Made by a program: the position numbers and the translations under genes | Notes under the pieces: generated by a model | What the model was told of the DNA's origin: nothing | The model's database searches: none | Seen by the model: the letters and a program-made list of their open reading frames with translations, nothing else | Part shown: positions 5,148-19,876 of the stretch, in pieces | Layout of the letters: each line of letters begins with the position of its first letter | How positions within the stretch are numbered: the stretch's first letter is position 1 | NCBI RefSeq assembly: GCF_000003605.2 | Contig: NW_003137828.1 | Span: 322,318-343,331, forward strand | Direction of reading: 5' to 3' | Source: Saccoglossus kowalevskii | Lineage: Eukaryota; Hemichordata; Enteropneusta; Harrimaniidae | DNA length: 21,014 bases

Positions 5148-8100
5148 TGCCTAGTAACACTTCATTATTTACATATAAGTTAATCTTCCGTCGTTAGACA
5201 CATCTGTCCGTGACTATATGACATCCATACAAAAAGGATTACCACATTCTCTACTTTATCAATTGACCTTTCACCCCTTGTTCCGTGTAACATGTGTCTC
5301 CTTTATGCCAAGGCTGAAATGATTCAAACATGTTTTGTTATTGATGGAACATACACTTTAATCTAAGATAGATTATAACAAATAAGTAATAATGTATGGT
5401 ATTTTAGTGTCACATACACTTGTGTATGACATGAAAAATGTGCAGTGTCATCGCCACAATCTCTGCGCGTACTGTTATTGGTTAGGAGTAAAGGCGTTAT
5501 CATCGGATAGCCAATGAGTCTGAACACTGGTACATTTGCATATTTGTTTGTATTCATGTTGTCGTGGCGGCGCTCTTTGAGAACCGGTAAATGTATTAAA
5601 ACCGTCATCATCACCAGCGCGTTCGATTGTCGTGTAAACCGGGTTTCCCTTGTCATATAGTCAAATTGTTGTTCTATTCTGTTTTCCTCGGACGTTATTT
5701 TAAAGTAATATATGATTGAGAACAAAGAAATGCTGCTAATTTTAATTATATTATGCTAATTATTATATGATTGTATGTGGGATTGTTGAGTTCTAAGCCC
5801 AGTATTTGATCTCACATAGGTTTTCTCTATAGGTAGTAATGAGTCAAGTTTCGCTGTCATTGTCGAAATAGTTTGTTACGAAAGCGAGGCTGTGATTTTA
5901 TTCTAAATATTGGTATCACCAGACCGTAAATCGAGTGTGATTTTACTAATCTATATCATTCACTAGTAGAAACTTATCAACAGGTATCAAAGAGGTCTAT
6001 AAATTGTGTGTCAAAATAGGTCAGGTTTTTTTTTTTGACAAACATTAGCTTCATTTTCAATATAGACAACGTAGTTTTTGAATTTTGGAAAGGGGTAATT
6101 CAACTTAGACAAACATTTGTGTTCGATATTTGTTGCACATTTTTTTTATTATTTTGTTGTGTCTTCGGTATACAGTTTTAATGTATACAAAATCATAACT
6201 TAGTGCCTATATCATCATCGTGTTCCACACATACCTGCAAGAAAACACACCCTCTTTCTAGAAGTTATTCACTTACATGTTGTTTTATTATCGGGTACTA
6301 ATGCCGAACATTACTGTAACCGTGGCTTAAATGTATTCTCGACTGCGAGGTATATTATTGGGTGAACCACAAGGGCAAGACGGGATCGGGAATACATGAC
6401 GGGAGTTACTCGCCTTCGGGACATGATATCATGACTGGTAACATCGTTCAAGTAAGCCGCTTTCTTCAATTTGTTGAAAGAATAATACATCATGCTGTAA
6501 TTGAGCAATGAAGTAAAATTTTCCATTCACATTTCAGTAGCACAAACTGGGATGTAGAAGGATGACTTGGCTGTCATTATTACGACGTGATTTTGTAAAA
6601 CAAATCAAAACTATGTTTGTATTTCCTCGCCTAGCAATCGATGGGACTGAAGAACCGTGCAACAGCCTATTATTATCCGTTGTTCCACAATAACATTATT
6701 TTTTAAATTATAATTATATTTCACTCCTTTTTGCGATTACGAAAAAAAAACCGCCAATTATAAGCGTAGTAAAAGTTTTGTGGCGTGTCACCACAAAATG
6801 TCGGTGTGTGGTGTCAGAGATACAACCGGTGCGACAACAGCTATAATACCGCTTATCGGTGAAATAGTCTACTTACGTGGCACACGACAGGCGGTATTTT
6901 TACAGGGACAGGGCCAACAACAGTAGTGCCAATGACCGAGGTCAGTAACCATAGTAATAAATATTGAGTACAACTATGCGTCCAGAGAAATATACAATAT
7001 AAATAAAAATTATAAGTACATTAAGAACAAAGGAGAAACAACTGCGGCGAAGACAAAAAATATTTGTTTTCTATCCCTTTGATTACGACAATTACAAACA
7101 TTATTACCTGTCAGTGCGTCATATGGTGCGATAGACAGTGTATATGAACATTAAGTCGGTCTCTTTATCAAGCTTATACAAATACGGTTTACAGAGATGA
7201 AACATGATGGCTGGTGACAGTGATGTAATGTGAACGTGTGATTCAAAATTGATTAGAAAACAAAATCAGTACAGTAAACAATTGTTCCCCCCCCAAAAAA
7301 ACGCTTAATCAATACCAGCGATACTGATTACTTTTAGAAATAGTGTCCGAGTCCACTAACTCATTAATTCCAACTATTTCAAACTTTTTATAATATGTAT
7401 AATGAAATATATCTAATGTTTTTGATGGAAAAAAATAAATTATAAATACAGTTTACTCCCATCGCACGTACATGAACACTTTGTCTAATGGTGGAGTACT
7501 ACCTACATTCACCGTCAGTCAGACATTCATATGATAACAGCGGTACACGCAGCATTGAGCCGAGCCTAAGTTCAGAAGGTAAAGTGACACGTGTCATTGT
7601 ATAGCAATACAAATTATTTCCCGTATAAATATGCAAAACACTAAGTGTTTGCAAATTTAAAATCTGTATATAGGATTAAAAGTTACCTTGTCACGCTTTG
7701 TTGGCAACATGCTACCTTCCACCGTCTCGCCAATAATCCAATATCAGTCAGTCGCCAACAAATGATACAAACAAACAATATACAAATTGTTATAAATGGT
7801 TTCGTTCCGTACTGCCTGTTGACATTTAATAATGATTATCATAAGTTACATACATCGTCTTGATTTGTTGTACACCATGATGCCATATTCGATTGATTCA
7901 CTTTAGTATATTAATAGTGCGTACCAGTAATTCTGATCGCATGTGAAGTTACAGAGTTTATAACTAGTGTCTTGTTCACGACCAAAACTATTATAAAAGT
8001 TTAACAATACACCATCATGTTTATATCACAGCATACTTGAAATTAGATTGAACAGGAGTCACCATATGAGCGTGCACAGACTGTTTATTCGACACCCTAG

Positions 8101-8991: not shown

Positions 8992-9119
8992 AGTTTATTA
9001 CGAGAATACCTCAAAGTATGCACTCAGACAGTACACCGTGCATCGACCTCCCCTGCGCGTCGGTCGATACATCAGCTGTACTGTCTTCGAGCATACTTTG
9101 AGGAATCCTCGTAATAACT
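8992..9119. repeat. Palindromic (hairpin) repeat, complete copy
   Basis: The two ends are inverted copies of each other. The left arm (about 8992-9036) and right arm (about 9076-9119) share ATTACGAG, CCTCAAAGTATGC and AGACAGTACA with a few mismatches and a one-base gap. The apex has its own perfect 7-bp stem (ATCGACC with GGTCGAT) around a GC-rich loop. The whole could fold into one cruciform or hairpin. No coding capacity is visible. A second, shorter copy at 14151 shows that this is a dispersed family, most easily explained as a MITE-like or foldback element. Confidence 0.8.
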
Positions 9120-11745: not shown

Positions 11746-13101
11746 CTAATATCTGGATTTGTATTGAGCATCCCGATCGTGGCGATCATAAATATTACCC
11801 CAAGACAAAGTTTGGTTGAACTTATCGGCTAACATCTGGTCGTACGGCTCGAAGAAATCGTATAACTTAGACTTGAGCTCATCGGGCACCTCACCTCTGA
11901 TGCCAGCACCCTTGGTTTCACTGGCAACTTCTTTTTGTGATTTACTCTTTTTGGCAGGAGATGACTCTACACACATGTCTTGCGGGAATTTAAGGCAGTA
12001 CTTGTGGTGGTCCTCGTCAAAAAAGAAATGGCTTTCATCGAAGTAGGATGGGAGGCCGAGGAAGTATTCCAACCGCTGCATCTCCCTTGCTGGATGTTTA
12101 GTAGCCGCTTCAGCATCTATAAGTAATATTTGGTCCATCGGAAAAGCGTGCATCCATCGCATAAAGTGCTTGAAATAGAGACTGCTGTCTACTAGGGCAT
12201 TCAGGTGGTTTATGTTACCCGACCCACGATCAGTCACGGTTTTCTCCAAATTATCGGACATGTACTGCTCTATTGCTTCTGGGTTCTTGTCTTTCACAGC
12301 CAATGATACATAGTCAGCGATGAGCCTTTTCACAGGGTCACAGACTACAGCAACGATTCTCGTTTCCGGAGAGATTTCATCGCGTACTTTTTTCGGCACG
12401 TCATGCGGGACAATGAAATACTCGGGTGTCTTCTCGACAGTCAATTGGCTCTCCGTTGTGTATGGCATTTGTTTGCGATATAATTCAAGTCCCTTTTTGT
12501 AAGAGCCGCTGAAAAAATCTAGTGGCAGAAGAGACGTGCGCATTTCAATTGCTGGATGAAAGCGCAAAAACTGCAGAATTCGTCCTATTCCGCATTTACG
12601 CATCCCGATTAACACCGCCTGTGGTAGTCTCTGCTGACATCCTCTTTTCCGCAAATCTTTTTGATCCAACAACACTCGGTTGCTCAAGTCTTTCCTGTCT
12701 ACTTTGTAACATGAATTGTTGAACTTGGAATCAATATATGCGTCTACGTCGTGTTTTGCTTCATACGGAACGGACTGGTATTTGGACTGTCGGTCGAGAG
12801 CTTCAACCAGCCTATCTCGGCTGGACGCAGCGGAGGACCCGAACAAGGGGAGTTGATGATTGCTAGCCCAAAAGTGTTCAAGGATGTACAGTACCCACAT
12901 GGAACAACATATCAGAATCACGCCAAGCTCGAGACAGTGTGAGCGACAAAACTGTGCCAGTCCCCATCTTCGTATCGCCATGTTGTATATGAGAGAGAAC
13001 AGTAGACTGGGTCCACTATTGTCTGAATGGATACTATCCAACCTCCACGTAACAACTGTGGAGAGCGCGTCAGCTGTACTACCGTAAATCCCCGTGGCCA
13101 T
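11746..13101 (-). CDS. Heparan-sulfate 3-O-sulfotransferase-like protein, possible pseudoenzyme
   Basis: Intact, intronless 451-codon frame. The family transfers sulfate from PAPS to the glucosamine 3-OH of heparan sulfate in the Golgi lumen. Family signs are a hydrophobic type II signal anchor (about residues 57-74), a degenerate PAPS loop at 165-175 (IGMRKCGIGRI), LTVEKTPEYF at 220-229 with the conserved Lys, DP..R...DY at 255-264, a SLYFKHFMRWM...F segment (307-320), ERFL-like EYFLGL (345-350), and the paired cysteines C369/C377. Compared from memory with HS3ST1, key residues differ. KGGTR reads KCGIG, the catalytic Glu position falls on Leu191, the 3'-phosphate Arg and Ser read C254 and A262, and there is a Lys/Ser-rich insert at about 380-394. 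NxS/T glycosylation sites lie at N128 and N429. A second ATG in good context (12981) would give 411 aa with the anchor nearer the N-terminus. I kept the first ATG because it also has good context and lies about 80 nt from a TATA box. The fold call is firm; activity is doubtful. Confidence 0.88.
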   Translation of the reverse strand: MATGIYGSTADALSTVVTWRLDSIHSDNSGPSLLFSLIYNMAIRRWGLAQFCRSHCLELGVILICCSMWVLYILEHFWASNHQLPLFGSSAASSRDRLVEALDRQSKYQSVPYEAKHDVDAYIDSKFNNSCYKVDRKDLSNRVLLDQKDLRKRGCQQRLPQAVLIGMRKCGIGRILQFLRFHPAIEMRTSLLPLDFFSGSYKKGLELYRKQMPYTTESQLTVEKTPEYFIVPHDVPKKVRDEISPETRIVAVVCDPVKRLIADYVSLAVKDKNPEAIEQYMSDNLEKTVTDRGSGNINHLNALVDSSLYFKHFMRWMHAFPMDQILLIDAEAATKHPAREMQRLEYFLGLPSYFDESHFFFDEDHHKYCLKFPQDMCVESSPAKKSKSQKEVASETKGAGIRGEVPDELKSKLYDFFEPYDQMLADKFNQTLSWGNIYDRHDRDAQYKSRY

Positions 13102-13179
13102 GATAACAACGATTATAGTTTATCGAAGCAGTTGCATAGACTATGTAAAACCAATCAAAGCATCACAAAATAACATCTT

Positions 13180-13187: not shown

Positions 13188-15160
13188 ACAATGAATTTTG
13201 GAAACCATATTCGTTTGTTGTTGACCATATAGCTAATATTTCCGGGCATGCAGACGACAATTGTGATTTTATCAATTGTTGGAGTCGATTCTAGAAATCC
13301 AATCTGCCTGGCGAACTGTCAGTGCGAATTGTAAATGATGATATTGACATCAATATCTACTCTGTATTATCCTATGTGTTTTGTGTAAAATTCAGTATGT
13401 ATTTTCACTATTATGGTATTACGGTACTTGATAACATGGCTTGACGTGCGAACCGTTCATTTGTACATTTTGAAACTATGTTTTTTAACAACTAGGGTTA
13501 ATAAATTTGATTCAGACATGCTTTCCATTAGTGCCACTACGTGCATTTGACCCACCATGTCCATGTCATAGCATCTGCCTTAAAAGGGGTCGCTCATTCT
13601 GTTACTTAATCTCTATACTTATTAATTCCGGCTGCTGCACGACCTGCATAGAAAGCGTGTATTTTCCATAGAAAAGAAACTCGCGCATTTAATGTGTATC
13701 CCTTTATTCATTCACAAAACAAAAACGTGTCCGTATTATCTACGGGTACTTAACGTAGGACATAACATATACTATCATTTCCGGTTCACTCAAAACTACT
13801 TCCTAAGTGGTGTTTGATTTCTGTGTGCACGATATAGACTAGTGTTTCATGGCCCGTGTACTGAAACACTTTTCTTCATGGCATATTTTGAGATGCACAT
13901 CACGGAGAAAGGGTGGGGTGGTTATTATAGTATATTCGTGAACCCTTTTTAGACGGTTGAAATAAAAAGACACAACATGACAAACACTGGCAAAACAATA
14001 GTTTTTAGTTACTGTAGCTTTAATAATCAATCAGGAACCATTACCTTCAACAAGTCTGCTAAACAACACAATGTTAAAAAAATGAAAGAAAGCACGTTAC
14101 TTAAATATGCATTTCTCGCAAGTAATGCCTCATATTGCACGTCATGGGGATATTACGAGGATACATCAAAGTATGCACTCAGACAGTACGCCGCGCAACG
14201 ACCTCCGCTGCGCGTCGGTCGGCGACAGATGTATAATAATAATTATTATTGCAACGAAAATAAACATAACTCGTATTATTACATATATTATGTAGGCACA
14301 GTTTGGCAGTTACGACACGAAATTACAGACGTATATGTGTGGGTGCGATTTGATTGGGAAAATGCATCTCGCCACTGTACACTGTAAACAGAAGCACACC
14401 CGTTAGACCACAGCGCGTTGCACCCCCTCACATTTTAAAATAGTGGATTCAAGGATATATAATTTTGTAAACAAATTCTTCAATGGGAGTTTTTTCCAGG
14501 GTAATGGCGGTAAGCAGCACCCAGGTATAGAATGGTTCAAACGGCTGCTCAACTGATGACATTTTTGTTTCCCGCAATCTAGTTGGAAACATTCATCGGT
14601 GGTAAACAATAGGGTGAATCGTTAGTCAAGTCAGCTTACGCATGTTATAGTTGCAACCGTTGGAGGTTGATTTGTTTGGCATTTTGATTATGATTCCGGG
14701 TATATTCCATTCTGAAAGGAAATTATTATTAAAATGAAAACAAAACAAAAACATTTGTATTTGTAGAAAATCTATAAACTTTAAGTCTGGTATTCTAACA
14801 ACAAAATCTTAGAGTAAGTTAAAGCGCAAATTCCGCGAAAGAAATACACTGCTATCAAAATTAGAAAATGTCTATCACTATATACATGGAAAACTATACC
14901 CGATGCAGTAAAAGTACATGGTAAAAAATCCACAACGCATAGTACATTAAAAAGCGACAAAGTATAAATCTACGAAAAAATCGTCTAGATAATGAGACAT
15001 GTCACAACATACAATCTTACCTTTCAATATTTAGTCCAGTCAATTTATGGTTTGACCCATCACAAATTGCAACAGAAATAATTTCTTGCAATACATTCCC
15101 TGGAGGTGCGTAGATTGACATACCAAAAGTCTAAGAAAATCAGGCTTCGGAAATATACCT
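13188..15160. other. Intergenic stretch containing a palindromic repeat remnant
   Basis: No supportable gene. The plus-strand frame at 13977-14387 runs through the palindromic repeat copy at 14151 and has no domain. The minus-strand frame at 14403-14609 is short and unrecognised. The remaining sequence is AT-rich. Confidence 0.55.
14151..14221. repeat. Palindromic repeat, truncated second copy
   Basis: Bases 14151-14192 match the left arm of the repeat at 8992 with only a few differences (TATTACGAGG, ATCAAAGTATGCACTCAGAC, AGTACGCCG). The apex follows, with its small stem CGACC (14199-14203) and GGTCG (14217-14221). The long right arm is missing. Immediately afterwards comes AGATGTATAATAATAA (14227-14242), a 16-mer that in the first copy stands on the other side, at 8977-8992. 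The copy is therefore half an element, truncated or rearranged at its apex. Confidence 0.75.
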
Positions 15161-15512
15161 AATTTGCATATATTCAAAATGGCCGTTTGGTGCATTTTTA
15201 CAACATAGAAAATATAACTATTAGGACATATCTTTAATTCTAGATGACATTTTTTAGATATTCAAGTTGCTGCGATATGGTTTGGTGTGTGTGAATGTAT
15301 GTGATTGTGAAACATTTGATTGAATAACAACCATTTGCATAAATCCAATATGGCCGCCAAAATAGTATCATTTAAATGTTTTGGCATTCAGATGATATTA
15401 TGTACAGGATGTAGATGCAAAACTATAATTTTGAAATAGAAGAAATGTTAACTAGTGTATGACCTTCTTATTAGAGATGCCTCATTTGCATAATTTATTC
15501 AAAATGACCACC
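15161..15512 (+). repeat. Three direct subterminal motif repeats upstream of element ORF
   Basis: The copies begin at 15161 (AATTTGCATATATTCAAAAT then GGCCG), 15332 (CATTTGCATAAATCCAATAT then GGCCGCC) and 15481 (CTCATTTGCATAATTTATTC then AAAATGACCACC). Spacings are 171 and 149 bp. Sequence between them is only loosely similar. Their position just before the leader suggests subterminal binding sites for an element protein or promoter repeats of the element. Confidence 0.65.
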
Positions 15513-15620
15513 AATATAACATTTAATCATGTTTTCACTTACAGGTGTAAGACATTGCAATTGTTGGGTTAATATTTGATTACAAGAAAAGTTAAATTTC
15601 AGGACAGGTATTATCATTGG

Positions 15621-15711
15621 GTAAGTATATAATTTGCTAGATTTAACATGACATTTTTGATTAATATTAAACTGCCAGCAATGAGTGGTCTATTTTTTAC
15701 ATTTATTTCAG
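15621..15711 (+). other. Candidate 91-bp intron in the element leader
   Basis: The donor GTAAGTAT at 15621 is close to the perfect consensus. The acceptor is a pyrimidine-rich TTTATTTCAG ending at 15711, 24 nt before the first Met (15736) of the conserved protein. The interval is AT-rich and of a plausible size for a small animal intron. If real, the element is transcribed by the host and spliced, and this copy is not a processed retrocopy. The call rests on signals alone. Confidence 0.4.
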
Positions 15712-15735
15712 ACTGTTGTTCATTACGTGTCTGCA

Positions 15736-16371
15736 ATGGATGAAGTAAGTAAATGTACTATATGTGAAAGGTCTTTTGGTGGTGAAAAATCAACTATCAT
15801 TACCCTGGGTGTGAAAGGAAGTGTCGGTGTTAACAAAGCCAGTGAAGAACATGGTGACACTACTATTCATACTGTGCCTGGCCAACAAGTTCACAAGGAA
15901 TGTCGTCGTATTCACTGCAATCCATTAAAAATAGCCAAAGCAAAGAGGCAGGTTGAGCAAGTCCAACTTCCGAGTACTCGTAAACTGCGTACACTTGAAA
16001 AAAGCTTCACCTTTTGCTCTGATTGTTCCTTCTATAACACTCCAATTAACTTCAAAATACGTGGAACGTATTTGCCAGTAACTACCATTGACTACAAAGG
16101 AGCATTATTGGCAACCTGCAGAGATGGGCAAGATACATGAAGTGTACATGACTTACCTGCTGCTGATGCTGTGTATCACCAGGTGTGCAGTGTCAATTTT
16201 CGTACTGGGAAGCAAATTTCTAAGATGTACATGGCTGGGCAAACTGTTTCCAAAAGAAAGAAGATGGGTAGACCACATGTTGAAGAAAGAACAAATGCAT
16301 TTCTTGAAGTCGCACAGTTCCTTCAAGAAAATTATGATGAGCAAGTTACCATGAGTGTCTCATCGAGTTGA
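15736..16371 (+). pseudogene. Element protein, N-terminal double C2HC zinc-binding region
   Basis: The conserved part begins at the Met at 15736. An ATG at 15685 is possible but lies before the splice acceptor. Two metal-binding modules are visible. The first is C7-x2-C10 with H53-x2-C56 (CTICERSF ... VHKECRR). The second is C94-x2-C97 (FCSDCSF) with H148 and C151 (YHQVCSVNFRTG). The TGA at 16138-16140 falls inside the second module and the same frame resumes after it. A basic tail (KRKKMGRPH) follows, and the frame stops at 16369-16371. Spacing and order suggest treble-clef or BED-like DNA-binding modules, but I cannot assign a named family. The upstream leader holds the candidate intron. 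Confidence 0.7.
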
Positions 16372-16384
16372 TTGACAGATTTTA

Positions 16385-16808
16385 GTGGACTCTGAAAGTA
16401 CAGCATATAGCCATACACAAATGAAGGCACAACTTAACGAACATTTTGTCAATCAGATAATAATAACCGAAATTAATGGAAAAGCTAATGTAGTCACTTT
16501 CAAGACAACTGCTGAGGCTGTTCTCCAAGAATGTCATGCTCGCCAGGAGACGGACCCAGAGAGAGAGAGAAATTTAACATTATAGAAGCAGCTGCCAAGT
16601 TAATTAGAGATGATATAAAATCAATCGAAACGTGTAATGATACATACCCACCCTCTAGTGTAATGGAATCGAAAGAAAAATGTCTTGCATTTGTACCAGA
16701 GTCTCTCAAGTGTTTTTAAAAGAAATATTCGTTGGGAAAGACATTGGAGTGAAGCTGGCATCAATTGGACAGGCTATTAAACAAGCATCTCGCCCCAGGG
16801 TTCTGTAG
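16385..16808 (+). pseudogene. Element protein, frameshifted linker region
   Basis: The frame shifts by one base relative to the N-terminal part. From 16385 (a GTG codon) it reads AYSHTQMKAQLNEHF and IIITEINGKANVVTF. At about 16560 it moves back to the first frame and reads FNIIEAAAKLIRDDIKS through VPESLK. A single missing T in the run at 16712-16716 brings a TAA at 16717-16719. One frame over, translation continues as EIFVGKDIGVKLASIGQAI until TAG at 16806-16808. After this a stretch present in the family as I recall it seems deleted. The region has no catalytic motif I can name; it is mixed and partly helical. Confidence 0.6.
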
Positions 16809-16831
16809 TTCATACTTAGAGACACAACGAT

Positions 16832-18034
16832 TTGGACAGAATGCAGCAATATATCAAGGAACACAATGTGGATCATAACATAAGGACCTTGGATGGAAAT
16901 GATACATTTCATGGTATAGGGATAATAGCTACTGTCACTCCAGGCACTAAGCAAACCAACTGTATTCCAAGAGAAAATGTTAGTCCACAAGATATATCCA
17001 CAACAGGACACATTCAAATACAGTTCCATGTAGTCGAAGGCCAAGGTATTGCTGAAGTGAAGTACAGGGATACAGTCCTCAAGACAGCTAGAGATCCAAT
17101 AGCAAATCTCGACATCATTTGGAAGACATCACTCTTGTTTGGTCCCTCTAGACTTGCTTGTTCAAGATTGTTACAGTTTGTTCATCATGGCAACCATCCT
17201 AGTAAATCAACAGTGGTATTCCTCCCAATGATTGACATGAGTTAAAGTGATATCACATGCGTCTTCTCTACTCTAAAGTTTATCACTGAACATGCAGAGC
17301 GTCACAATGTAGCACCAATTGTCACTTTTGACCAGCCACTATGGTGGAAAGCTTTCACATTTGTAGTTGCCGCACCCATGGAAACCAATTTACGTAAAAT
17401 GGTTTTATGTCTAGGCGGATTGCATACTGAAATGAGTTTTCTTGGGAGCATTGATCTAATGGTAGGTTCTGGTCTGGTAGAGCTTCTGGAAATAATATAT
17501 GCCCCAAAGGCAGTTGAGCAAATTGTTGCTGGTAAGGCCATTTCTAGGGCAGTAAGAGCTCATCTATTGGTTGACGCAGTTCTTAATGCATTAATGCTGT
17601 CCACTGCATTAGATGTATCCATTCCATGTGATTCAGGTGAATCAAGTATCACATATAGTACAGATGGTGATGGTGAGCAAGATGATGAGTTGATGAAAGG
17701 GGATAAGTCGGCAGAGGAAGCCAGTGCAGCTGAAGTTCTGGACAGGATCAAAGACCAGCTCGATAAACAGAAAAAGTTAATGAAGAATAATCGAACAGCT
17801 ACACTATGGTTACAATACATGGAAATGGTGGACATCCTTAGAATGTTTATCAAAGCTGAACGCATAGGAAACTGGGCTTTACATCTCCAAGCTGTGCCAG
17901 AGATGCTTCCTTACCTAGCTGCCTCGGGACACAATTCATATACAAAATCAGCTAAATTGTATTTGCAATTCATGTCTAGCCTTGAGAATGATCACCCTGA
18001 TATATATCAGAACTTTGTAGCTGGGTTATCATAG
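16832..18034 (+). pseudogene. Element protein, central conserved region (possible DDE-like core)
   Basis: This is the longest readable segment, 400 codons with one in-frame TAA at 17243-17245. Conserved blocks in order are VDHNIRTLDGNDTFHG (two Asp), VVFLPMIDM, APIVTFDQPLWWKAFTF (an Asp after a beta-strand-like run) and LGGLHTEMSFLGSIDLM (a Glu after His), then a helical region RAVRAHLLVDAVLNALM. An acidic linker and a lysine-rich coiled stretch (about 17660-17790) follow, then a block LWLQYMEMVDILRMFIKAER and LHLQAVPEMLPYLAASGHN. Strand-Asp, strand-Asp and helix-Glu in that order would suit an RNase-H-like DDE/D recombinase fold. That is inference from the pattern; I cannot place it in a known transposase superfamily. 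Confidence 0.65.
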
Positions 18035-18476
18035 AGCAAGTATTGATGAGAAGCATGAAAACGAATGGTGGACTCACGGGAGGCAGGGGCATGACTGAAC
18101 AACAGCGTCTCACTTGGCTACTGTCAACGCCTGCCTGTGCTGAAATAATCAACAGAGTAATGCAAGAGCTCACAGATGTAAAATATAGTACAGGTGAGCA
18201 AAACAAGGAGATGACCAAGGCAAGACAACTCCGTGATATGAAAGATACACGCACCTTGCTGATTGCTTTAACTGACAGGAATCCATTTACTCCCCATATG
18301 GGTCTTCGGAATATCATGAATCGTGTGAATGCAGATAGCAGATACAAGTGGATCCACAACTTCTGTTTCAACGCCTGATAATTGCTTGCAAAACATCTGA
18401 TGATATGGAAGGAATCTTCGAGTTTGAGCTATGTAGTTACCCAACAGCCCTATTTGATTTCTCGCTCATGCTGTGA
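18028..18476 (+). pseudogene. Element protein, segment between core and nuclease domain
   Basis: A frameshift at about 18025-18032 takes the reading to a second frame, which runs from IIEQVLMRSMKTNGGL through GRGMTEQQRLTWLLSTPACAE to RNIMNRVNADS near 18340. There an internal deletion joins it to a third frame starting at 18351 (DPQLLFQRLIIACKTSDDME ... YPTALFDFSLML). That frame ends at TGA 18474-18476, probably a decayed CGA. The GRGMTEQQR and TPACAE blocks are among the best conserved of the family as I recall them. I can assign no function. Confidence 0.55.
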
Positions 18477-18756
18477 CAACCACAAAAGCCTTTACTTGCA
18501 GATGCTATATTGGGAAAGTTATCTCCTGATGAAACAGAGACAGTTGGTGATTCCCTACATATGCAGAAATTTGCAATATCTATGTTGACTATGTTACTAC
18601 GAAGTATGGAAATGCAATCATAGTTTTTGATGGATATGACACTATCTCAACCAAGCACATCACCCAGCAGAGACGAACAGCTGGAAAAATTGTCCAAATG
18701 TAACTTTTTCAGATGAAATGTAGCTCACCACAAGCAAGAAGCTGCGTTTTATCTGT
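18477..18756 (+). pseudogene. Element protein, damaged first half of nuclease-like domain
   Basis: This segment is readable only by changing frame several times. A readable piece ADAILGKLSPDETETVGD is near 18500. A second, KYGNAIIVFDGYDTISTK, lies at about 18605-18660 and is followed by ITQQRRTAGK. VFDG followed by a basic helix with RR is the pattern at the start of FEN1/XPG-type nucleases, where the Asp binds metal; here it is the codon at 18629-18631. Stops and shifts between about 18695 and 18756 break the link to the second half. Confidence 0.5.
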
Positions 18757-19206
18757 ATGCTAGGTCACTATCTAGAGATGGTGAATTGCAAAGTATATCA
18801 TGCCCAAGCTGATGCAGATGTTCTTATAGTACAGAAAGCTGTAGAATCTGCCATCAGGGCTAACACCATATTGGTTGGAGATGACACAGATCTTCTTAGT
18901 CTGCTGTGTTACCATGTAATTTCTGGTGCATTTAATTTGTTCTTCCAGCCTGAACAAAAGAGGCATTCAAAGAAACATCGAGTGTGGAACATAAAGGTGG
19001 TAAAGGAGCAGCTAGGTCATGGTGTATGCATTCTGTTTGACCATGCAATTTTCGAATGTAACACAACTTCCCGTTTGTTTGGTTTAGGAAAAGGAGCCTC
19101 GCTTAAGAAGTTTACCACTAATAATGAGTTTCGTGAACAAGCAAGAGTGTTCAACAATCCATGCTCTTCTTCAGATCAAATAACACTTGCTGGAGAGAAA
19201 GCTTTA
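18757..19206 (+). pseudogene. Element protein, FEN1/XPG (PIN-like) nuclease-type domain
   Basis: The frame opens with HYLEMVNCKVYHA, followed by ADADVLIVQKAVESA and TILVGDDTDLLSLLCYH. These correspond to the two acidic clusters that bind metal in FEN1/XPG-like PIN-fold nucleases (usually EAEA...A and DxDxL). Here they are D19/D21 and D42/D43/D45, counted from the Met at 18757. Next come FFQPEQK, a lysine-rich stretch, RVWNIKVVKEQLG, then HAIFECNTTSRLFGLGKGASLKKF, reminiscent of a GCDTTS/GxG motif in the same superfamily. Acidic residues are intact in this copy. The frame shifts at about 19206. The assignment to a PIN-like nuclease is by motif recognition, not by alignment. Confidence 0.6.
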
Positions 19207-19633
19207 TTAAGCCTTACAATGGAAAGTCTGATGAAAATCTGGACAGTTTTCGATACAGGCGCTTCTGTGAAAAGGCTGCGACCAAGAATTTGCATGTTCA
19301 TGTCTTCCACCTACATCAGAAGCAGCAAGATATCACAGTTATCGTGTTTACTTCCAAGTACAGCAGTGGAGGGGGAAATGAAGCACTTCTAGCAGAAGAA
19401 TGGGGCTGGATCACAAGTGGTGGAACACTCATTCATGTAATGACTGACAAGGAGGCAGCACCTGAATTTCTCTTGAGGATAGTGAGATACACTGCTCCAC
19501 AGACTGTCGCAGTCTCAGATGTACCTGCAGAAAGCACAACCTTGAATGTTCTGCAGTTTGTGGTCAATGTCGAGGATCTGGATGCACAAATGAAGTTCAG
19601 ATATCTGATGAAGATAGCGATGATGATTACTAG
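19207..19633 (+). pseudogene. Element protein C-terminus with CXC-type cysteine cluster
   Basis: Three frames are needed. From about 19207 one reads YNGKSDENLDSFRYRRFCEK. From about 19297 another reads PPTSEAARYHSYRVYFQVQQ. From about 19390 comes LLAEEWGW and later APEFLLRIVRY. One missing base near 19499 then hides the true end. From 19502 the shifted frame reads DCRSLRCTCRKHNLEC, then SAVCGQCRGSGCTN, an acidic tail and TAG at 19631-19633. The spacing C-x4-C-x-C-x6-C-x3-C-x2-C-x4-C resembles tesmin/TSO1-like and MSL2-like CXC zinc clusters, which bind DNA. An AATAAA follows 18 nt after the stop. Confidence 0.65.
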
Positions 19634-19651
19634 CAATTACATTAATCAAAC

Positions 19652-19657
19652 AATAAA
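19652..19657 (+). terminator. Poly(A) signal AATAAA of the element gene
   Basis: A canonical hexamer lies 18 nt downstream of the inferred original stop codon (19631-19633). The closeness to the stop and the correct strand make it more convincing than a random AT-rich match. Confidence 0.5.
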
Positions 19658-19813
19658 CTTTTGGACATAATTATAACTATTTAATACAGTTTGTTAAATC
19701 AAAAATATAGTTTACAGAGTGTTACGTTTTAATGGTCTATTATGTATATAGTATAGCAGATTTGTAGAGGTGTTTCAAGGTGTTTCATTCCTTTCTGTTT
19801 TTCTTTTAGATGT

Positions 19814-19844
19814 GACGGCCATGTAAAATTTATGCAAATGAAGC
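19814..19844 (-). repeat. Inverted copy of the subterminal motif at element 3' end
   Basis: On the minus strand this reads ATGCTTCATTTGCATAAATT then TTACATGGCCGTC. It matches the three plus-strand copies upstream of the gene, the best being ATGCCTCATTTGCATAATTT at 15479. The opposite orientation makes the ends of the unit look like divergent inverted repeats. Confidence 0.6.
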
Positions 19845-19876
19845 ATCCGTCTACCCGGATACCATTCATTTACATA
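19831..19876. repeat. Imperfect hairpin at the element 3' boundary
   Basis: TATGCAAATGAAGCATCC (19831-19848) and GGATACCATTCATTTACATA (19857-19876) are inverted copies with a two-base bulge and two mismatches, separated by an 8-nt loop. It overlaps the inverted motif and is the last recognisable structure of the unit. Confidence 0.55.

Follow-up and report, generated by a model that had tools for sequence, protein, structure and literature searches.

A decayed, probably AcademX-type transposon with a flap-endonuclease-like part in the genome of Saccoglossus kowalevskii

A stretch of 21,014 nucleotides from the hemichordate Saccoglossus kowalevskii (C2922:322318-343331, on contig NW_003137828.1; hereafter the window) contains a broken reading frame whose remnants resemble zinc modules, a DDE-type transposase core, a nuclease of the FEN1/XPG type and a CXC cysteine cluster. 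A preliminary description of the sequence had taken this for an unclassified mobile element that fits no transposon class. The locus raises the question of whether the frame belongs to a mobile element at all, whether its parts form one protein and to which group of transposons it should be assigned. Judged from sequence, the element extends from 15032 to roughly 19.85-19.9 kb of the window and is probably the decayed remnant of an AcademX-type, cut-and-paste DNA transposon, an assignment based on layout and on the length of the target-site duplication (TSD). Its relatives lie dispersed through the genome as insertions whose ends are precise and whose target sites are duplicated over 3 bp, and they encode a protein that joins two enzyme-like parts.

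Ends and target-site duplications of the relatives

The protein had been described as repeated, and among the matches listed in the 572-Mb host genome there are at least 52 to the nuclease piece of the window and at least 121 to the transposase core; both counts are lower bounds that include the window's own matches, and some copies are split into several. The copies are spread over many contigs. Twenty places were fetched from among the higher-ranked nuclease matches and scored for the pieces of the window at E 0.01. Seventeen had the CXC piece, 15 the core, 13 the piece at 18031-18375 and 10 the VFDG piece. Identity to the window ranges over 26-72% among the aligned pieces, many of which are interrupted by stops. 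Weaker core matches with 25-29% identity, partly without stops, occur on C4566, C3001, C3427, C1850 and C1168 and may stem from additional lineages within this transposase group. Loci L001-L148 were rejected as relatives, being matched by DNA pattern only (tblastn of the window pieces was insignificant there), and no relatives outside the host genome were found in phages, plasmids, IMG/VR or prokaryote contigs.

Many of the relatives start or end with TAGTCCAGT (read 5'), which is inverted at the two ends. A search for the 38-base end sequence that allowed up to three mismatches located 20 places, and the reversed-pattern control located none. Mean pairwise identity over these places is 91% in the 40 bases inside the end and 28% in the 40 bases outside it, and 15 of the 20 have T as the third base ahead of the end. 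Nine copies among the 22 loci examined have both outer ends, with element lengths of 4.1-6.7 kb, and eight of these are flanked by identical 3-bp TSDs (att, ttt, tca, taa, tta, tta, att and ata). Cross-pairs between copies match in 7 cases out of 72, and the binomial tail is 6.6e-8; this value is a guide only, because some of the same copies had served to set, by eye, both the end and the length of 3 bp. The TSD of L197, which was fetched after both had been fixed, matches too. L158, L174 and L176 were left out of the count since one of their sites is an inner, CTAG-preceded copy of the end (as failures they would give 8/12), and L164, with aaa on both sides by eye, was left out for its degenerate left end.

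Such inner sites are a feature of several copies (Table 1). The second TAGTCCAGT-like site has the same orientation, is usually preceded by CTAG and, where the outer 3' end is seen, sits 343-384 bp inward of it; in L163 there is a further one at 559 bp. Because its flanks recur, the inner site seems to be a part that the copies inherited rather than an insertion of its own.

The check for common ends and TSDs that the preliminary description had proposed thus found both among the relatives, and the family is therefore a DNA transposon rather than a group of host genes. A multi-copy host gene family, for example one derived from DNA repair, would account for the long open frame of L199 and for the codon-position bias given below; against it stand the exact ends shared between copies in unrelated flanks, the 3-bp duplications, the dispersal over many contigs and the stops in many matches. 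It was rejected on the relatives' ends and TSDs, and we consider it hardly credible.

The encoded protein

Positions 15700-19640 are derived from coding sequence, because the lengths of the stop-free frames exceed those of 500 dinucleotide shuffles. The longest plus-strand frame has 262 amino acids against a shuffle maximum of 193, and frames of at least 80 amino acids total 1154 amino acids against 481. Read across three frames, the order is two CxxC...HxxC modules, the core blocks, VIIEQVLMRSMKTNGGLTGGRGM, VFDGYD, QADADVLI, GDDTDLL, FECNTTSRLFGLGK, the CXC-like cluster and a stop. All the parts named in the preliminary description could be placed (Table 1): its two C2HC modules, the second across one stop, its strand-Asp and helix-Glu region as DDE-like blocks, its FEN1-type signature and its CXC cluster. 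The union of a recombinase-like core, a FEN1/XPG-like layout and CXC in one protein likewise recurs among the copies. L199 has an uninterrupted frame of 830 amino acids that runs from before ADNVDHNIRTIDG via TFDQPLWWKA and SSDLVIEQVLMRS to VQFVLDGGSLLQRVPW, and so spans the DDE blocks up to VLDGGSLLQR; because this frame is single and unbroken, one protein includes both the core and the beginning of the nuclease. In L169 a single frame, interrupted by stops, leads on from VLDGGSLL via GCDSTSRIFGIGK and the nuclease to the CXC cluster (CNCLVGCKFSRCSCRRYGLPCTAVCGPCQIDNCDN). Differences at the three codon positions are 0.43, 0.30 and 0.63 over 7965 codon pairs, which suggests past coding constraint; the pairs were aligned by protein and are biased to conserved stretches.

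The D/D/E-like blocks of the core are conserved among copies without a profile match. A match to the candidate catalytic Glu in a three-frame census of the window was rejected as off-frame, and the frame-read Glu was used instead. A census count of the CXC motif was dropped, since the pattern used for it also picks up the nuclease motif when this is read off-frame. The CXC-like RCTCRKHNLECSAVCGQCRGSGCTN is the sole match to its own pattern in six frames of the window.

The putative nuclease resembles the FEN1/XPG nucleases of host cells in the order of its acidic motifs, in their similar spacing and in a GxG beyond the last Asp. It differs from them in being fused to a transposase-like core, in its high divergence and in lying below every profile threshold. 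From (D/E)x(D/E) to DxD there are 24 residues in the window and 21 in FEN1, and from DxD to GxG 66 and 61, respectively. The window did not match the initial limits on FEN1 spacing, by one residue according to the printed indices; with limits widened post hoc it matches and none of 300,000 composition shuffles does. Diverged copies retain the layout as V[IL]DGGSL, VFDGY, E(E/D/N)(D/N)AD, GEDTDLL-like and GCDTTS-like motifs.

Several results weigh against this account of the ends and the protein. The ninth copy with both outer ends, L167, has taa on one side and att on the other, and no right end was recognisable in the window copy. L169 carries, at 1824-2193 and 7060-7428, a 372-column inverted repeat (88%) that starts with CCCCCC, and has no TAGTCC end, which suggests that it belongs to another subfamily or consists of two elements, one nested in the other. 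The N-terminal zinc-module piece was detected in just 3 of the 20 fetched relatives at E 0.01. A structure model of the core, predicted from one sequence, gave no information (predicted local distance difference test score 36) and was not used. No Pfam-A model exceeded its cut-off on any scanned piece of the element or its relatives, the nuclease and the core included; Rfam at its gathering threshold and PADLOC (for two pieces) returned nothing, and PDB sequence searches nothing significant. Plain pairwise alignment of the nuclease to human FEN1 is not significant, and a profile alignment reaches E 0.13, pairing GCDSTSRIFGIGK with FEN1's GSDYCESIRGIGP. Two unrelated Pfam families score better than XPG_I, namely MCP1_TM on the nuclease pieces of the window (E 0.0014-0.0037) and DUF4136 on the nuclease of a relative (E 0.0043).

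These last results are what would be expected if the FEN1-like motifs were a chance resemblance within a structural or DNA-binding domain of a transposon that has no nuclease. The acidic motifs, on the other hand, recur in diverged copies: a rough three-frame census of 21 loci, the window included, finds GGS after the first Asp in 15, DxD in 18 and C[DN][TS]TS in 17. The GxG beyond the last Asp agrees with FEN1, and sub-threshold matches to XPG_I in L158 (14.4 bits against a cut-off of 24.9, model positions 2-89 of 89, E 0.051) and to XPG_I_2 in L170 (E 0.16) point in the same direction, each in one of the 18 members scanned. Chance resemblance is on balance very unlikely.

The window copy and its surroundings

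The features of the window copy are collected in Table 1. The preliminary description had placed the start of the element at 15161; the left end is at 15032. The inverted motif that it saw on both flanks does belong to a discrete mobile unit, as it had suggested, but is a subterminal repeat and not the end. Inverted TAGTCCAGT terminal repeats are present in the relatives, and the window shows the left end alone. The pattern ATTTGCATANATTCAAAATGGCCG, which was derived from the same repeat copies that it counts, has three matches in the window (15162+, 15333+ and 19816-) against 0.00 expected, and a degenerate fourth repeat may lie near 15631. Local alignment of the left and right sides within the window is no better than shuffles (33 against a null maximum of 38).

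Table 1. Features of the window copy (window positions) and, in the last row, inner end-like sites of relatives
Feature	Position	Strand	Remarks
ATT outside left end	15029..15031	.	Candidate TSD; 3 bases; no right-hand partner found
Left terminal region	15032..15239	+	Starts TAGTCCAGTCAAT; inverted matches to 3' ends of L157 (15029-15239) and L167 (15032-15216)
Subterminal repeat ATTTGCATATATTCAAAATGGCCG	15162..15185	+	Probable transposase-binding site
Subterminal repeat, second copy	15333..15356	+	
Subterminal repeat, third copy	15484..15509	+	Less similar; outside the ATTTGCATANATTCAAAATGGCCG matches
Likely protein start with two CxxC...HxxC modules	15736..16188	+	ATG 15736; frame reading
First module	15754-15918	+	
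Second module	16012-16188	+	One stop between its halves
Transposase core	16823..18031	+	Single frame with one TAA
NVDHNIRTLDGNDTFHG	16865-16915	+	Candidate D1; core frame
TFDQPLWWKA	17324-17353	+	Candidate D2; core frame
GGLHTEMSFLGSI core block	17414-17452	+	Core frame; then long stretch ahead of candidate Glu
Continuation with VIIEQVLMRSMKTNGGLTGGRGM	18001..18375	+	Another frame
Candidate catalytic Glu (VIIEQ)	18034-18036	+	Frame reading
Start of nuclease domain	18531..18697	+	Broken over two frames
ETETVGDSL	18531-18557	+	Perhaps the damaged equivalent of the relatives' VLDGGSLL
VFDGYD	18623-18640	+	In another frame
FEN1/XPG-like nuclease core	18724..19236	+	
QADADVLI	18805-18828	+	
GDDTDLL	18877-18897	+	
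FECNTTSRLFGLGK	19051-19092	+	GCDTTS in many relatives, so last Asp is Asn here
CXC-like cysteine cluster RCTCRKHNLECSAVCGQCRGSGCTN	19517-19591	+	In frame to stop 19631-19633
Inverted subterminal repeat, right side	19816..19839	-	Terminal stretch past it unrecognisable
Second TAGTCCAGT-like sites in relatives	L158 1560; L159 7790; L162 1274; L163 7721 and 7937; L164 7561; L171 1141; L172 1101; L176 7861		

The window copy looks dead. Its frame is broken, a stop lies inside the second zinc module and a TAA in the core, and Asn takes the place of the last nuclease Asp; with the frame broken and at least one nuclease Asp replaced, it would no longer be functional.

About 2 kb from the element a stop-free frame of 457 amino acids (11746-13119, minus strand) matches Sulfotransfer_1 with E 2.1e-14 and is a probable host gene. 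A segment of 30 nt at 111-140 on the minus strand matches 15028-15057 at the left end of the element in inverted orientation (77%); it may be an end left over from another copy, a short non-autonomous element related to this one or a product of chance. Positions 8995-9117 and 14144-14221 share a 71-nt repeat (92%) and have inverted partners of 41-46 nt, an arrangement similar to that of a short palindromic repeat element.

Affiliation, proposed mechanism and meaning

In Kojima's account of 2020 and in Repbase the AcademX nuclease is reportedly XPG-like. According to PMC10045372, AcademX elements have TSDs of 3 or 4 bp and AcademH elements of 9 or 10 bp, a difference that seems tied to the encoded nuclease and helicase, respectively. 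The family described here is filed with the AcademX type because it shares the nuclease layout, the TSD length, the inverted ends and the size. Its TSDs of 3 bp fall within the AcademX range, and as in AcademX (PMC10045372) a putative nuclease and a putative transposase are combined in one element of similar length with inverted ends. For size, 100 curated bivalve Academ elements have a mean of 5565 bp (PMC10294476). With AcademH it has in common a putative accessory enzyme beside the transposase and, on this placement, the superfamily, and it differs from AcademH in the latter's helicase and longer TSDs (PMC10045372); no helicase was named by Pfam in the pieces scanned. KolobokP, KolobokE and KolobokD similarly add a nuclease to a DDD/E transposase (PMC9587614), but their nucleases are of the His-Me finger, lambda-exonuclease-like or DnaQ type and not FEN1-like, and KolobokP has long terminal direct repeats. 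The main text of PMC12730594 and PMC8230255 contains nothing on Academ.

The family might instead represent a superfamily of DNA transposons outside Academ, in which the FEN1-like nuclease and the CXC cluster were acquired independently. This would be in keeping with the failure of any Pfam model to name core or nuclease above its cut-off, with a kinship to Academ that was judged from layout and TSD length, and with a literature search that found no published CXC or flap-endonuclease transposon, which does not prove that none exists. Transposase, nuclease and 3-bp TSD are nevertheless the very set reported for AcademX in PMC10045372, and an unrelated recurrence of that set would be the costlier assumption. 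A separate superfamily is accordingly unlikely, and it is improbable that the protein, with a DDE-like core, a putative FEN1/XPG-like flap nuclease and a putative CXC DNA-binding cluster fused in one chain, marks a non-Academ lineage. Were that the case, the element would bring its own enzyme for branched transposition intermediates instead of borrowing that of the host. The earlier statement that the combination fits no transposon class is not supported: PMC10045372 describes AcademX with a nuclease beside the transposase and TSDs of 3-4 bp, in agreement with those found here; as a new transposon class, the discovery does not stand.

For an AcademX-type element the parts of the protein suggest the following division of labour. 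Binding of the ends, and of the ATTTGCATA-type sites repeated near them, may fall to the zinc modules and the CXC cluster. The DDE core, of RNase-H-like type, would nick the ends and join them to the target DNA with a stagger of 3 bp, and repair would then convert this stagger into the duplication. The FEN1/XPG-like nuclease could cut branched or flapped strands that arise from excision or after strand transfer.

The family demonstrates that decayed copies in an animal genome can still reveal the ends, the duplication length and the domain order of a transposon even where profile libraries give it no name. The contrast within Academ between a nuclease with TSDs of 3-4 bp and a helicase with TSDs of 9-10 bp, as reported in PMC10045372, allows the role of the fused nuclease to be tested.

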